64,000 nt of DNA, taken from positions 165,646,478-165,710,477 of the forward strand of contig OV884058.1 of the NCBI GenBank assembly GCA_930367215.1, in the 5' to 3' direction. Of the stretch, positions 3,045-60,644 are shown piece after piece. Below the pieces are notes generated by a model. That model made no database searches. It was given only the letters and a program-made list of their open reading frames with translations, and was not told where the DNA came from. Made by a program: the position numbers and the translations under genes. This DNA comes from Pollenia angustigena (taxonomy: Eukaryota > Arthropoda > Insecta > Diptera > Polleniidae). Each line of letters starts with the position of its first letter. The stretch's first letter is position 1.

Positions 3045-3140
3045 TTGAGACAGACCGGAGTCCCTGGCGGAATTTAACTCGCAACCATCGCACTGACAGA
3101 CTAGCTTTTAAAACGTTCCTACCAAGGCACCCATTGAATA
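3045..3140 (-). mobile_element. SINE-like tRNA-derived fragment
   Basis: On the minus strand this stretch resembles a tRNA-derived head. It has GCTAGTCTGTCAGTGCGATG followed by GGTTGCGAGTTAAATTCC, a decayed B-box-like element. The segment at 53356-53430 (minus) has the same order of blocks with a better B box (GGTTCGATTCC), so the two are probably copies of one SINE family. No poly(A) tail or target duplication was identified. Confidence 0.4.
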
Positions 3141-39669: not shown

Positions 39670-40930
39670 TACAAATTTAATATTTAAATAGCAGTTTTTT
39701 TTTGCGAAATTTTCAATAAATAGCAAATTTCTTTTGTTTTTGCAAAATTTCCTGAAAATATCATTTTTTCCAATAAATAGCAATTTTTCCATAAACAGCA
39801 AATTGTTGCAAAATTTTCCATAAATAGACAATTTTTTGCAAAATTTCCTTAAATAGCAAATTTTTGCAACATTTTCTATAAAAGCAAATTTTTGAAAAAA
39901 TTTCCCATAAATACCAAAATTTCCTATTAATAATAAATTTTTGCAATATTTCCTATAAATAACCAATTTTTGCGAAATTTGCTATAAAAAGCAAATTTTT
40001 GCTGAATTTCCTATAAACAACAAATTTTTGCGAAATTTCCTATAAATAAAAAGTTTTTGCAAAATTTCCTTTAAATAACAAATTATTGCAAAATTTCCTA
40101 TAAATAGCAAGTTATTAAAAAATTTCCTATAAATAATAAATATTTGCAAAATTTCCTATAAATAACAAATTTTTGCAAAATTTCCTATAAATAACCAATT
40201 TTTGCAAAATTTCCTATAAATAAAAAGTTTTTGCAAAATTTCCTATAAATAAAAAGTTTTTGCAAAATTTCCTTTAAATAACAAATTATTGCAAAATTTC
40301 CTATAAATAGCAAGTTATTACAAAATTTCCTATAAATAATAAATTTTTGCAAAATTTCCTATAAATAACAAATTTTTGCAAAATTTCTTATAAATAAATA
40401 GTTTTTGCAAAATTTCCTATAAATAACAAATTTTTGCAAAATTTCCTATAAATAACAAATTTTTGCAAAATTTCCTATAAATAACAAATTTTTGCAAAAT
40501 TTCCTGTAAATAACAAATTTTTGCAAAATTTCCTATAAATAAAAAGGTTTTTGCAAAATTTTCTATAAATAAAAAATTTTTGCAAAATTTCCTATAAATA
40601 ATAAATTTTTGCAAAATTTCCTTTAAATAACAAATTATTGCAAAATTTCCTAACAAATAACAAATTTTTGCAAAATTTCCTATAAATAACAAATTGTTGC
40701 AAAATTTCCTGTAAATAAAAAATTTTTGCAAAATTTCCTATAAATAACAAATTTTTGCAAAATTTCCTATAAATAACAAATTTTTGCAAAATTTCCTATA
40801 AACAACAAATTTTTTCAAAATTTCCTATTTACAAAAATTTTTTGCAATATTTCCTATAAATAGCCAATTTTTGCAAAATTTTCTATAAAAAGCTAACTTT
40901 CGCAAAAGCTCCTATAAATTTTTATAAAAA
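39670..40930. repeat. 29-bp minisatellite, about 1.25 kb
   Basis: About 43 head-to-tail units of 29 bp, close to GCAAAATTTCCTATAAATAA followed by CAAATTTTT, fill this stretch. Central copies (40130-40800) are nearly identical and the edges are diverged. Because 29 is not a multiple of 3, minus-strand frames cycle through different phases and give a peptide with 29-residue periodicity. These frames are not genes. Confidence 0.95.
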
Positions 40931-47689: not shown

Positions 47690-49920
47690 GCAACATGGAC
47701 CAAGAACGTGTAAGGCCAATTTCGGTTACCCTTTTAGAACTTACCCATATTCCAATGAGAGCTACCTCCGACTGGATACATAGCGACGACAGCTACGCAA
47801 ATTAATTGGTTAAAATATAAAAAATATCTCAGTACCCATTGCACAGAAAATATTCCGCTCAGTACACCGGATTATGTAGATCGCTCTATTGACAATTTTG
47901 ACAGTTTTCTGAAACTAGCTGTTCAACATTCCAGCGATACCCCCAAAAAAATTAAAAATACTAAAATATATTCTTCAGATGTCGAGCGGCTCTTGACTGA
48001 AAAAATGAGAGTTCGAAGAGAGTGGCAACTTTACAGATCCCCGCAACTTAAGATTTTATTAAAAAAGTGCACAAAAAAGCTAAGAAAGTTACTGCAGAAT
48101 CAGAAAACGGCTTCTCTAGAAAAATATCTTAAGGAACTTGATGCAACTCCACAATCTGACTACTCATTATGGCGTGCAGCTAGAAATCTAAAAAGGCCAG
48201 TTATATCTAAGCCACCATTAAGAAACTTGAATGGTAATTGGGCAAGAAACGATATTGAAAAAGGAAATCTGTTTGTTAGTCACTTGAAAAACGTATTTAC
48301 ACCAAATATATTTCACAATATTGCGGTCGAGTTACCACCTGTTGCTGCTAAAGCAGCTATTCCCCTCAGATTTGAGTTAAGAGAAATCGAAAAGGCTATT
48401 TGTGACTTAAACACTAAGAAGGCACCTGGTATGGATAAAATCAGTAATAAAATGCTTTTGGAGCTACATCGCATAGCAAAGAAAATTATTCTTTTTATTT
48501 TTAATGCTATTTTACGCCTTGAATACTATCCTCAAAAATGGAAGGTTTCCTTAGTTACCATGATACCAAAGCCAGGTAAAGATCATACAAATGTTGAGTC
48601 TTATAGGCCTATTAGCTTATTATCAAATATGTCAAAGTTGTTTGAGAAATTATTAGTTTCAAAATTAACACCGATTTTAAGTGTAAATAGATGTATTCCA
48701 AACCATCAGTTCGGATTTAGAAGAAAACACAGCACAATTGAACAGACTCATCGAATAGTAAATGTCATAAGAAAAGCTAAAGAAAAACTAAAAGCTCAGC
48801 ACTCTTCATCGATGTTTCGCAAGCTTTTGATAAAGTCTGGCATGAAGGCTTATTACATAAATTGAAGCAAAATTTACCAGCAAACACACACAAGCTGCTA
48901 GAAAGCTACTTAGTAGGTCGTCAATTTATTATTAAAGAAGGAAATTTCTTAAGTTCACCCCAGCCCATTGCCGCTGGAGTCCCACAAGGCAGCTTCCTGG
49001 GCCCCCTATTATACTTAATTTATACTTCGGACATGCCAACAAGCAACTATACACAAACTTCAACATTTGCAGACGATACAGCTTTTCTAAGCGTCCACGA
49101 AAATCGTTATGAAGCATCGCGTTACTTACAGCATCATATATGTATTTCAACTAGAAATATGGTTACGACAATGGAGGATAATGGTCAATGAGCAAAAATG
49201 CGTACATATAACATTCACTTTGCGCCGGGAATCTTGCCCCCCTATTACAATCAATAATCAAATAATTCCTCAACATTCGCATGTTAAATATCTCGGTATA
49301 CATCTGGATCGGCGATTAACGTGGAAATGCCATATAGAGGCAAAATTAACTCAAATGAAACTAAAAGCCATTCAAATTCATTGGCTTATTGGAAGAAATT
49401 CTGTCCTTAGTCTCGATTGCAAGCTTTTACTTTACAACTCTATCTTAAAGCCTATCTGGTGCTACGGTATTCAACTATGGGGCACTGCCTCGGCCTCTAA
49501 TATCGACAAAATTCAAAGGCGCCAAAATAAACTTCTTCGAATAATCACAGCCGCTCCCTGGTATGTTAAAAACTCAAACATTCATAAGGATCTCAATGTG
49601 CCATTAGTTAAAACTATGATTACAAAATATGCAATAAAATATTTAAAAAGGCTTGAACAACACCCAAATCCACTAGCTCGAAATATTTTAAATCATGGCG
49701 GCCACACTCGCTTAAGAAGAAGAGACACTGCAGCACTTACCCAATTAGATGAGCGATAAACACCTATAAAAGTGAACAGAACCCGTGATGAAGAAAATTT
49801 TGTCTGGCACTGGCAGGACATAAAATAACGTATTAGGTTAAGATTTGATTAATTATTGTTAGTTCATATTTAATATATGAAGATTCAACAAAAAATAATG
49901 ACAAAAAAAAAAAAAAAAAA
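47690..49920 (+). pseudogene. 5'-truncated jockey-clade LINE (reverse transcriptase ORF2)
   Basis: The copy begins in the end of the endonuclease domain (ISVTLLELTHIPMRATSDWI in one frame). It then runs open from about 47790 through the linker into reverse transcriptase: KKAPGMDKISNKML, KWKVSLVTMIPKPGKD, YRPISLLSNMSKLFEKLL, HQFGFRRKHSTIEQ. A frameshift near 48800 precedes the first catalytic block VSQAFDKVWHEGLL. PQGSFLGPLLYLIY and the catalytic FADDTAFL (about 49066) follow, then a second frameshift near 49145 and the C-terminal VKYLGIHLDRRLTW, WCYGIQLWG and LRRRDTAALTQLDER, with a stop at 49759. A poly(A) of about 18 at 49902-49919 marks the 3' end. These features are typical of the jockey clade in flies. 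Two frameshifts and the 5' truncation make it inactive. Confidence 0.93.
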
Positions 49921-57134: not shown

Positions 57135-57291
57135 TTTATTGGGTATAAACGATGCATATTATTTTTTATCATTTTTCGATTACAAGTGAAATAGGCACTA
57201 AAAATATTTGAAAAAAATATTCAATTCTTAAGTTATTTCGCGATTATGTTGCGTTCATTTTTCGGTCAATGAGCCGACCAACAAGACGGTG

Positions 57292-57330
57292 CACAGTAGC
57301 GCCCGTAGAGCAAACGAGGTTGCAAAAATC
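57292..57330 (+). promoter_or_regulatory. Left Transib end, RSS-like (heptamer, 23-bp spacer, nonamer-like block)
   Basis: CACAGTA (57292-57298) is followed by a 23-nt spacer and GCAAAAATC (57322-57330). V(D)J recombination signals have CACAGTG, a 12- or 23-bp spacer and ACAAAAACC. This is the presumed transposase binding and cleavage site. Confidence 0.6.
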
Positions 57331-57931
57331 AAAATTTTCATGAGCACCGACGAAGTTTTGAATAAACTCATGTTATAGGAAACTTTTCAACGATTTCAAA
57401 TCTGCCACTCTTAATAATATCACATTTTTAGTTTAGAAGATATAGCCGTTCAAAGTTGACCGACTTTCGGTTTTCAAAAAAACACACAATTTTTAGTAAA
57501 TTTGTTGCGATTTCAGGTGTAATATCACGAAAAATAGGTAACGAATCGCCTTATTTTTTGTTTGTATTGATTGATGCATTTATTAAATGTGTAATGATAA
57601 AAAAAAAATGAACTGTTTGCTTTGTGTTTCTCCTGGTAAATCACTATTTAAAAACTATCCGTTTTTTCACTATTTTTCAACTTTGACGGAAAATAACAAA
57701 AATCTATATTTTTCTATATTTGCCATATTTGCAAAATCTGTTCTTTGATTATTTCTTTACATAATTCAAAAATTTTATCTGCCCGTACGTGCCCGTTTGG
57801 CTTCTAGAGGTAAAAAAGGTTAAAAAGACATGGTTGCAGAAATTGTATGACAGTAGTTTGATCTAAAATCTAAAAAAACTACTCATTGAAATTAGCAGGT
57901 ACGTACCTCACTTAAACAATACTTTGGCGTA

Positions 57932-58230
57932 CAAATGGTCAAGAACAATATTGACTACAGGTAGGCACAAATCTTATTTGGACACGTGCATAATATCAAA
58001 ATTGCATTATTCAGCCTAATTCCATTTGTATGCAGGGAACAGGTAAATTTTTCGGCATGGTAGCATAAGCCTATATATTGCAAATGGTCAAGAACAATAT
58101 TGACTACAGGTAGGCACAAATCTTATTTGGACACGTGCATAATATAAAAATGCATTATTCAGCCTAAATCCATATGTATGTAGGGAACAGGTACATTTTT
58201 CGGCATGGTAGCATAAGCCTATATATTGCA
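57932..58230. repeat. 149-bp tandem duplication upstream of the transposase frame
   Basis: Two direct copies start at 57932 and 58081. They share runs such as AAATGGTCAAGAACAATATT and CATGGTAGCATAAGCCTATA with only a few differences. The duplication lies in the leader of the element, between the left end and the start codon. Confidence 0.93.
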
Positions 58231-58316
58231 AAATAAGCATAATGCCTGGATTAGTCTACGACTGAAAGTTGGCGCAACAATTACTGAAACCATTAAACAA
58301 TTTAAGTACTGAAAAC

Positions 58317-60320
58317 ATGGCGTTGAACAATTTTAAATTATTTGAACTGTTTAGAAAGTCAACCACACCAAATTTTTTCACGGAAGCTGCTTTAGAAGAA
58401 CTTGATAGCTTATACGGAAATATTGAGAGAAGCGAAATTATAAAAAATAATTTTTATCTGATATATGCAAATATTAAGGCAAAATGGGTGAAATCTAATC
58501 GAACCATTCAGAACTTCAACTCCAAATACGAGGACTGGCTTAATGAAGATACCATCCTGGATATATTGGCAGTAGATAAACCCACCACATCAACCAGAGG
58601 AGCAAAAGGAAGGCCAAAAAAAAGTATTGAGGAGTGTTCAATTTTCACAAGAAAGAGGAAACTTGCCGATGCCACCAATGACTTGACCACGAAGCAATTA
58701 TCGGAAGCGCTGTCTATTAAATTTACAAAGGATAGTGAAAGAGTTAGGTCGCACATAACCAAATCTGTTGCTGATGCAAGCCCACTGCGACTAAAAAGGA
58801 TTAAGGAAAGCATTCCCACGCCCACAAACGCACACATTAAAAAGTATGGTTCCGAAGAAGCCTTGGCCTTGTTTATGGACTTAGAACTTTCCAAAGAGAA
58901 ATATGAGAAACTACGGGCATCTTTAACGCGACACGGCGCTGACGTTTTACCCGGATACAAGCATATTACGCAAGCCAAAATAAATTCACGACCACTGCAT
59001 ACGGAATTTACGGAAGTCTCTGCGAAAGCCAATCTGCAGGATCTCATGGGCCATACAGCAAAACGGTTGTTGGAGAGTCTTCCTGAAAATGAGGTGAAAA
59101 TTCTTCCTGAGAAGTTGACATTGATCAGCAAATGGGGCTGCGATGGATCATCCGGACAAAGCGTTTATAAGCAAAGGATATCTTCCGATGACGCTACAAT
59201 ATCGGACGGAAATATGTTTATGGCATCTGTTGTTCCTTTGCGGCTTAAATCGGATGTTTCCCTTCACTGGAAAAATCCACGTCCGTCATCAGTGCATTAT
59301 TGCCGACCAATAATGTTTCAGTTTGCAAGGGAATCGGCAGAACTCATAAGGACCACGGTGAAGGACATTGAAGAACAAATAAGCAAGATTAAGCCTACAA
59401 AGCTGCAAATTGGAGAAGGAAAATATATTGAATGCAATTACGAGTTCCATCTGACCATGGTTGACGGAAAAGTCGTAAACGAACTGACAGGAACAACCTC
59501 AACAATGTCATGCCCGATTTGCAAAAAGAGTCAGAAGAACTTTGGTAATTTAAACGATTCTACAAATGAGGAGAATTACGAATATGGAATGTCACCATTG
59601 CACGCAAGGATAAGGTGTATGGAATTCTTGCTAAAACTGGCGTATACCCTACCACAAGAGGAGGAAAACTTCGATGAAAATACATCAATAAAGGATAAGG
59701 AAAAGATCAGAAAGAAGCAAATACAGGATGCTTTTTTTAAACAAGTTGGACTAAAAGTAGACTGTCCCAAGCACGGATACGGTAACTCAAACGATGGAAA
59801 CACTTCTAGGAGATTTTTTGAAAATGATGAGGCAGTAACTAGAATCACTGGAATTGACAATCAAATCGTGAAAAGATTGGGAACGATCTTGGATGTTTTA
59901 AACTGCAAAGAAAATGTCAATTCTACAAAATATGGAGAATATGCGTCGAAAACTGCATCTCTTTTAGCAGAAATGTATCCACAGAAGAAGTTGACCCCGA
60001 CCGTCCATAAAATATTGGCGCATGGCAAAGATATAATTGAGTACCAGTCTTTGCCAATTGGAGAGCTTTCTGAAGAAGCACAGGAGTCTCTTAACAAATT
60101 TTATAAAAAATATAGATTGCAGAACACATTCAAAGCATCAAGGGTAAGGCAAAATGAGGACCTCTTCAACATGTTGGCAGCATCTTCCGATCCACTTATA
60201 TCTTCCCTGCGGCATGTGAAGTCACGAATAGAGTTAGAAAATAATTATAGTTTAGAAATGGTTAGTCTTTTAGATATACCTTCTCTTACGAACTGTGATG
60301 AATATTTTACAGAAAATTGA
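58317..60320 (+). CDS. Transib (RAG1-related) DDE transposase
   Basis: The frame encodes 667 residues from the first ATG (AACATGG context). It is open slightly further upstream, but only from a TTG. A basic GRPKKS segment sits at residues 98-103. By comparison with RAG1 and Transib enzymes I place the catalytic residues at D276 (WGCDGSSGQS), D493 (GNSNDGNTSRRFF) and E590 (IGELSEEAQESLNK). The zinc ligands are C399/C402 (SCPIC) and H564/H569 (VHKILAHGKDII). The last region ends SSDPLISS before an acidic tail. The enzyme should nick and pair the element's inverted ends in the nucleus and join them to 5-bp GC-rich targets. Length and motif spacing are normal for Transib, and there are no internal stops or frameshifts. 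AATAAA follows the stop at 60324. No promoter was identified, and introns in the leader cannot be excluded. Confidence 0.93.
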   Translation: MALNNFKLFELFRKSTTPNFFTEAALEELDSLYGNIERSEIIKNNFYLIYANIKAKWVKSNRTIQNFNSKYEDWLNEDTILDILAVDKPTTSTRGAKGRPKKSIEECSIFTRKRKLADATNDLTTKQLSEALSIKFTKDSERVRSHITKSVADASPLRLKRIKESIPTPTNAHIKKYGSEEALALFMDLELSKEKYEKLRASLTRHGADVLPGYKHITQAKINSRPLHTEFTEVSAKANLQDLMGHTAKRLLESLPENEVKILPEKLTLISKWGCDGSSGQSVYKQRISSDDATISDGNMFMASVVPLRLKSDVSLHWKNPRPSSVHYCRPIMFQFARESAELIRTTVKDIEEQISKIKPTKLQIGEGKYIECNYEFHLTMVDGKVVNELTGTTSTMSCPICKKSQKNFGNLNDSTNEENYEYGMSPLHARIRCMEFLLKLAYTLPQEEENFDENTSIKDKEKIRKKQIQDAFFKQVGLKVDCPKHGYGNSNDGNTSRRFFENDEAVTRITGIDNQIVKRLGTILDVLNCKENVNSTKYGEYASKTASLLAEMYPQKKLTPTVHKILAHGKDIIEYQSLPIGELSEEAQESLNKFYKKYRLQNTFKASRVRQNEDLFNMLAASSDPLISSLRHVKSRIELENNYSLEMVSLLDIPSLTNCDEYFTEN

Positions 60321-60601
60321 AAAAATAAATTTAAAAAAAAATAATTTTTTTTTTAATTTGTTGGGTAATAATTTAAAACATAAAAACCTAAAGAAAAAAA
60401 ATAAAAACAATCTAAAAATGTAAAAATAATTTTTTTTAGTTACCATAAAATTGATTTTTCTACTAATTTTAACTTTGATAACCCATAATTAGGCCCCTAC
60501 AGAGCGTAGCACCCTTTCCAAACGCTCATTTCATAGGCTGAACAGTTATCTATCATATGCTGTTTAAACTGTTCAATTATCTTATTCGGTTCAAAAGATA
60601 T

Positions 60602-60639
60602 GATTTTTGCAACGAAAAAACTCAAATGGCGCCACTGTG
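60602..60639 (-). promoter_or_regulatory. Right Transib end, RSS-like (heptamer CACAGTG, 22-bp spacer)
   Basis: Read inward, CACAGTG (60639-60633) is identical to the V(D)J heptamer consensus. After 22 nt comes GCAAAAATC (60610-60602), the same nine bases as at the left end. Confidence 0.6.
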
Positions 60640-60644
60640 CGGTG

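Follow-up and report, generated by a model that had tools for sequence, protein, structure and literature searches.

A Transib transposon, probably autonomous and in or just after a burst of transposition, in the genome of the fly Pollenia angustigena

A stretch of 64 kb from contig C3 of the Pollenia angustigena genome (G000; 1.37 Gb in 31 contigs), referred to here as the window, carries at positions 57292-60639 of the forward strand an element of 3,348 bp that an earlier note, made from the letters alone, had read as an apparently intact Transib transposon. The question raised by this locus is whether the copy is, as that note suggested, young and competent. Comparison with the rest of the genome makes it highly probable that the element is an autonomous cut-and-paste Transib and that the host genome is undergoing, or has only just undergone, a massive burst of it.

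A search of the genome for exact matches gives 1,104 for the first 28 bases of the element and 649 for a 41-mer from its right end (60574-60614), with no occurrence of the reversed-pattern control in either case. The 667-residue protein of the window copy is encoded without any difference at all 66 places that were scored, every one of them on contig C1; these are the best 66 of 11,737 first-look candidates, and the count is therefore a lower bound from one contig. Fifty of the 66 places were fetched for comparison, and 26 of them equal the window copy base for base over 3,348 bp. Given that these copies show no difference at all, some of the insertions must be very recent. The DNA of the open reading frame (ORF) is the same as in the window copy in 44 of the 50, and the other six hold seven ORF mismatches in total, none of which alters the protein, as follows from the selection of the copies on protein identity. 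The right non-coding 319 bp show a single mismatch in 15,950 bases over the 50 copies. If insect DNA mutates at close to 3e-9 per site and generation, the order-of-magnitude age of these copies, which were preselected for a perfect ORF, ranges from 20,000 generations (right part) to 100,000 generations (left part, leaving aside one diverged copy, L009). Many near-identical copies, which the earlier note had proposed to count, are thus present in the same genome, and the youth and competence that it offered as a possibility are supported as far as sequence goes. A disabling change common to many copies would have spoken against it; none came up among the 66 scored or the 50 fetched copies, these being the best-scoring ones.

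Some variation among the fetched copies deserves mention. L009 has a standard ORF and right end, with a left 640 bp that has diverged (24 mismatches and four gap openings), and is another kind of chimera than the derivative described below. L004, L015, and L035 carry the same pair of single-base variants close to the left end and form a sub-lineage. Copies that are otherwise nearly identical differ in the number of units of a tandem repeat of approximately 148 bp upstream of the gene, of which the window copy has two (57932-58232, forward strand), and element lengths of 3200, 3348, 3497, and 3643 bp are found among them.

The limits of the element are given by its ends and by the flanking duplication, and are confirmed by the end-to-end identity with the 26 other copies. 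It begins with CACAGTAGCGCC and finishes with GGCGCCACTGTG, so the two ends match nearly, as had been noted. Read inward, the left terminal repeat (57292-57330, forward strand) consists of CACAGTA, 23 bp, and GCAAAAATC, and the right one (60602-60639, reverse strand) of CACAGTG, 22 bp, and GCAAAAATC. These are the inverted CAC ends with a signal-like heptamer and an A-rich nonamer that characterize Transibs. Within the window, the left-end 28-mer and a right-end 19-mer occur once each at up to three mismatches, and neither was found in 100 shuffles. Some Transibs have symmetric spacers of 20-22 bp between heptamer and nonamer, according to PMC8355894; the present element is near to this, its left spacer of 23 bp being one longer. 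The layout is close to this symmetric arrangement and is not a 12/23 pair.

The perfect CGGTG duplication reported earlier was read again at 57287-57291 and 60640-60644. A 5-bp duplication could be read at 49 of the 50 fetched autonomous copies, the exception being L009 with its diverged left end. Among the 45 copies with exact ends, 39 lie in a CGNCG target (16 CGTCG, 15 CGACG, 7 CGGCG, and 1 CGCCG), and the other six in CGCTG, AGACG, CAGCG, AGGCG, CGTCT, and CGTTG; the target of the window copy is itself one base off CGNCG. The 64-kb window contains this motif 38 times, and 70 kb of flanking sequence contain it 76 times. The family therefore shows the 5-bp duplication with CGNCG preference that is described for Transibs in PMC4735498. 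Where insertions fall in repeats, unoccupied counterparts are visible: the repeat found around L008, L038, and L043 has a single CGACG when empty (L008 versus L043, 99.25% over 400 bp), and the target site of L029 is single, without insertion, in L001. No excision scars were noticed in the spanning alignments of the fetched loci and the window.

The transposase is encoded by one intronless, stop-free frame of 667 codons that starts with ATG (58317-60320, forward strand), its length and lack of stops being as first described. Profile search, sequence comparison, and predicted fold all support a Transib transposase of the RAG1 type, a relative of the enzyme by which antibody genes are rearranged, which upholds the original assignment. 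The closest structure match of the predicted fold is HzTransib, followed by RAG1 and then amphioxus RAG1L; identity with HzTransib is 37% over model residues 174-656, with the catalytic and zinc residues aligned and the fold shared. A better match to another DDE family was sought by profile search and fold comparison and rejected, and a hAT or P-element transposase was likewise rejected because the closest folds are not structures of these families.

An alignment of 51 Transib-type proteins was used to assess the conservation of individual residues. D276 (59142-59144, aligned with the CDG of RAG1), D383 (59463-59465), and E590 (60084-60086, placed by alignment) are invariant in it, as are C399 and C402 (59511-59522) and H564 and H569 (60006-60023), whose role as zinc ligands is assigned by homology. 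The earlier placement of the zinc ligands, of D276, and of E590 stands. Its second catalytic aspartate, D493, does not: this residue, in NDGNTSRRFF, is likewise invariant in the 51 sequences, but the alignments with HzTransib and RAG1 place D383 at that position. D383 sits in TMVDGKV and aligns with TMIDGKI of HzTransib and with the aspartate of 'YDEK' in RAG1, which we take to be D708 of the mouse protein. The predicted catalytic triad is D276/D383/E590.

Upstream of the catalytic core, a GRP motif (residues 98-100; 58608-58616, forward strand) is at least 90% conserved in the same alignment. It is likely the counterpart of GGRPR in the nonamer-binding domain of RAG1, and it may read the nonamer. 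The stretch is collinear with zebrafish RAG1 but the match is weak (i-E 64 for that stretch alone), and the structural alignment to 5zdz_A begins at model residue 99 against residue 391 of RAG1.

The nearest full-length relatives of the protein are 62% identical, and the nearest named one, from the gall fly (tephritid) Eurosta solidaginis, is 60% identical over 61% of the query. A partial match of 95% (P0001, 450 residues, 66% of the query) comes from an ENA record. In view of this partial match and of the distance of the nearest named relative, horizontal transfer of the element is conceivable. A viral carrier was also considered, and no relative was found in viral_contigs by single protein or by alignment, in a search from which records very near this genome were possibly omitted.

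By analogy with HzTransib and RAG1, the transposase would pair the two symmetric ends (heptamer, spacer of 22-23 bp, and nonamer), nick and hairpin the flanking DNA, and so free the element, which would then be joined to a 5-bp site of the CGNCG type and give rise to the duplications observed. Internally deleted copies are very probably mobilised by this enzyme as well, and so is a non-coding chimeric derivative with the left 546 bp of the element and a nearly identical right tip.

A sample less biased towards intact copies is given by the first 100 left ends listed on contig C1, from 0 to 115.2 Mb, which were matched by position with the 47 right ends and 27 perfect ORFs listed for that stretch. 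An autonomous-type right end could be paired with 40 of the 100 left ends; 35 belong to full-length copies (3,199-3,643 bp) and a further five to shortened ones. A perfect ORF is listed for 24 of the 35; in the remaining 11 it is either broken or merely unlisted. Conversely, seven of the 47 right ends have no exact left 28-mer, including those of L004, L009, and L015. Assuming that C1 is typical and that all perfect copies of the sampled stretch were listed, extrapolation of 35% and 24% to the 1,104 left ends gives approximately 390 full-length and 265 perfect-ORF copies genome-wide, and extrapolation of 27/47 to the 649 right ends gives approximately 370 of the latter.

For 76 of the 100 left ends no perfect ORF is listed, and of these the 20 that come first along the contig were sampled. 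Eighteen have no element sequence 3.0-3.7 kb in, while L069 ends at 3,070 and L070 at 3,348. One of the eighteen, L072, is an internal deletion (2,229 bp). The other 17 (L071 and L073-L088 on C1, compared over their first kilobase) keep bases 1-546 of the element at 99.8-100% identity, with five mismatches in 9,282 bases and a gap of one base, and continue beyond base 546 in unrelated sequence. Eight of these chimeric copies were followed to the right end. They measure 1,076-1,744 bp. The blocks that they share are 99.3-100% identical, most of the differences between them being internal deletions, and they contain no ATG frame over 67 residues. Their final 329-330 bp are 93.5-94.3% like the right end of the present element, and the difference is unevenly placed: in L083, the last 110 columns hold one difference from the autonomous right end and the preceding 226 hold 19, which marks a nearly unchanged block of approximately 110 bp at the tip (60530-60639 in the window copy, reverse strand). 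Each of the nine copies, chimeric or deleted, that were traced as far as the right end has a matching 5-bp duplication.

A 45-mer across the chimeric junction occurs exactly 600 times in the genome (control 0), and 61 of these occurrences are listed in the C1 sample stretch. The chimeric derivative stands out as the commonest form of the family. Its structure suggests a non-autonomous element that gained the left end of the present family by recombination and is very probably mobilised by the transposase of the present element. L069 (C1:25408755), with 3,070 bp, carries the junction of the derivative and is perhaps nearer to its parent. Two copies of 1,418 bp (C1:74598124 and C1:95162002) combine the derivative junction with the autonomous-type right-end 41-mer.

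The state of the burst today is a separate matter from its occurrence. We lean, by a modest degree, towards a RAG1-type transposase that is now multiplying in the germline, with some 250-400 intact, nearly identical autonomous copies and approximately 600 copies of a non-coding parasite in which its left end has been fused to a right end from a diverged relative. Several points weigh against the main reading, that of an autonomous element in or just after a burst. Only 24 of the 100 left ends sampled on C1 have a listed perfect ORF and 60 lack an autonomous-type right end; the totals of intact copies are extrapolated from part of one contig; the 50 copies were picked for a perfect ORF, which biases their divergence downwards; and their left 640 bp hold 34 mismatches in 32,035 bases, of which L009 accounts for 24. 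It is also possible, though less likely than not, that the burst was recent but is over, the intact sequences having been silenced by PIWI-interacting RNAs (piRNAs) or restrained by derivatives that compete for the transposase. Deleted derivatives are known to repress the P element, and in the C1 sample the chimeric derivative outnumbers the full-length element (61 junctions versus 35 full-length copies per 100 left ends), as restraint of this kind would have it; the 26 copies that are identical to the window copy argue the other way.

A family that is older and has been homogenised by gene conversion or recombination between copies, with no recent burst, is improbable. Exchange between copies is real, as seen in the mixed make-up of L009 and in the junction of a nearly invariant left 546 bp to a diverged right end in the derivative, but the duplications lie outside the element, where conversion within it would not renew them, and are intact in 49 of the 50 autonomous copies and in every derivative or deleted copy followed. 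It is very improbable that the copies are a fault of the assembly, or a handful of insertions multiplied by segmental or satellite duplication. Such duplication could account for L022 and L024, with shared 200-bp flanks, and for the like-flanked L008, L038, and L043, but the other resolved copies have flanks and duplications of their own.

L022 and L024, 8 kb apart on C1, have the same target-site duplication and identical 200-bp flanks on both sides, and are one insertion multiplied by local duplication; they form the only identical pair among 28 left flanks of 25 bp. L008, L038, and L043 occupy the same position, to the base, in one repeat; their flanks are 92-99% alike, and they may be separate hits on a hot site or one insertion copied with its repeat.

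Apart from the transposase frame, the only ATG frame of at least 80 residues in the element is an antisense one of 179 residues inside the transposase gene. Of the ten stop-to-stop frames of at least 130 residues in the window, seven were scanned against Pfam, and the transposase separately; in the seven, only a non-LTR reverse transcriptase was found, in two of them. It belongs to a non-LTR retrotransposon whose reverse transcriptase extends across overlapping frames at 47759-49759 (RVT_1 in two). A tandem array of a 29-bp AT-rich unit, in approximately 35-40 copies, occupies 39786-40919. ARAGORN found no tRNA in the window and no Rfam family reached the gathering score there.

More than 1,000 identical ends, together with intact copies whose number extrapolates to hundreds, are a direct counter-example to the rule of low copy number in autonomous Transibs. 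From the many recent insertions and unoccupied sites it can be read how a RAG1-type enzyme chooses its targets in vivo, what it requires of the ends, and what scars excision leaves, and the element offers a ready transposase for biochemistry together with a case of a non-coding element taking over a new left end. If the family is indeed multiplying at present, it would be a natural experiment, on the scale of a whole genome, in which RAG-type transposition runs without RAG2.

Of the systems already described, HzTransib from Helicoverpa zea (PDB 6pqn, 6pqx, and others) shares the fold, the catalytic and zinc residues, and the 5-bp duplication with the present element; it is given in PMC1852546 as 3,518 bp with a deduced protein of 489 residues. 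The present protein differs in having approximately 175 residues, with the conserved GRP motif, ahead of the region aligned to the solved chain, and the present element differs from HzTransib in being found in very many copies. RAG1 and the RAG-like transposons (RAGL/ProtoRAG) have the RAG1-type core fold, the catalytic triad, the CAC heptamer ends, and the 5-bp duplication in common with it. The RAG-like transposons carry a RAG2-like gene beside the RAG1-like one, whereas the frame scan of the present element shows no second gene: outside the transposase frame and its antisense there is no ATG frame of at least 80 residues and no stop-to-stop frame of at least 130 residues, no RAG2 profile search having been made. 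As regards abundance, autonomous Transibs are usually present in one or a few copies, according to a 2015 paper, and the present family is therefore a strong exception. The Transib of Helicoverpa armigera is given 40 sequences, 32 of them full-length, and 188 copies in PMC7764229, and no report of a comparable Transib copy number was found among the titles and abstracts listed in searches of open-licence papers. The nearest parallel is Transib1, which invaded D. melanogaster in 2013-2016 from D. simulans and which, as described in PMC12230796, is likewise a young Transib with canonical, nearly identical copies along the chromosome arms. For Transib1 the source and date are known; in the present family a chimeric derivative is the commonest form. 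Both the kind of element, a member of the Transib superfamily, and the kind of event, a young invasion, are thus already known, and what stands out is how many identical intact copies there are and how dominant the chimeric derivative is.
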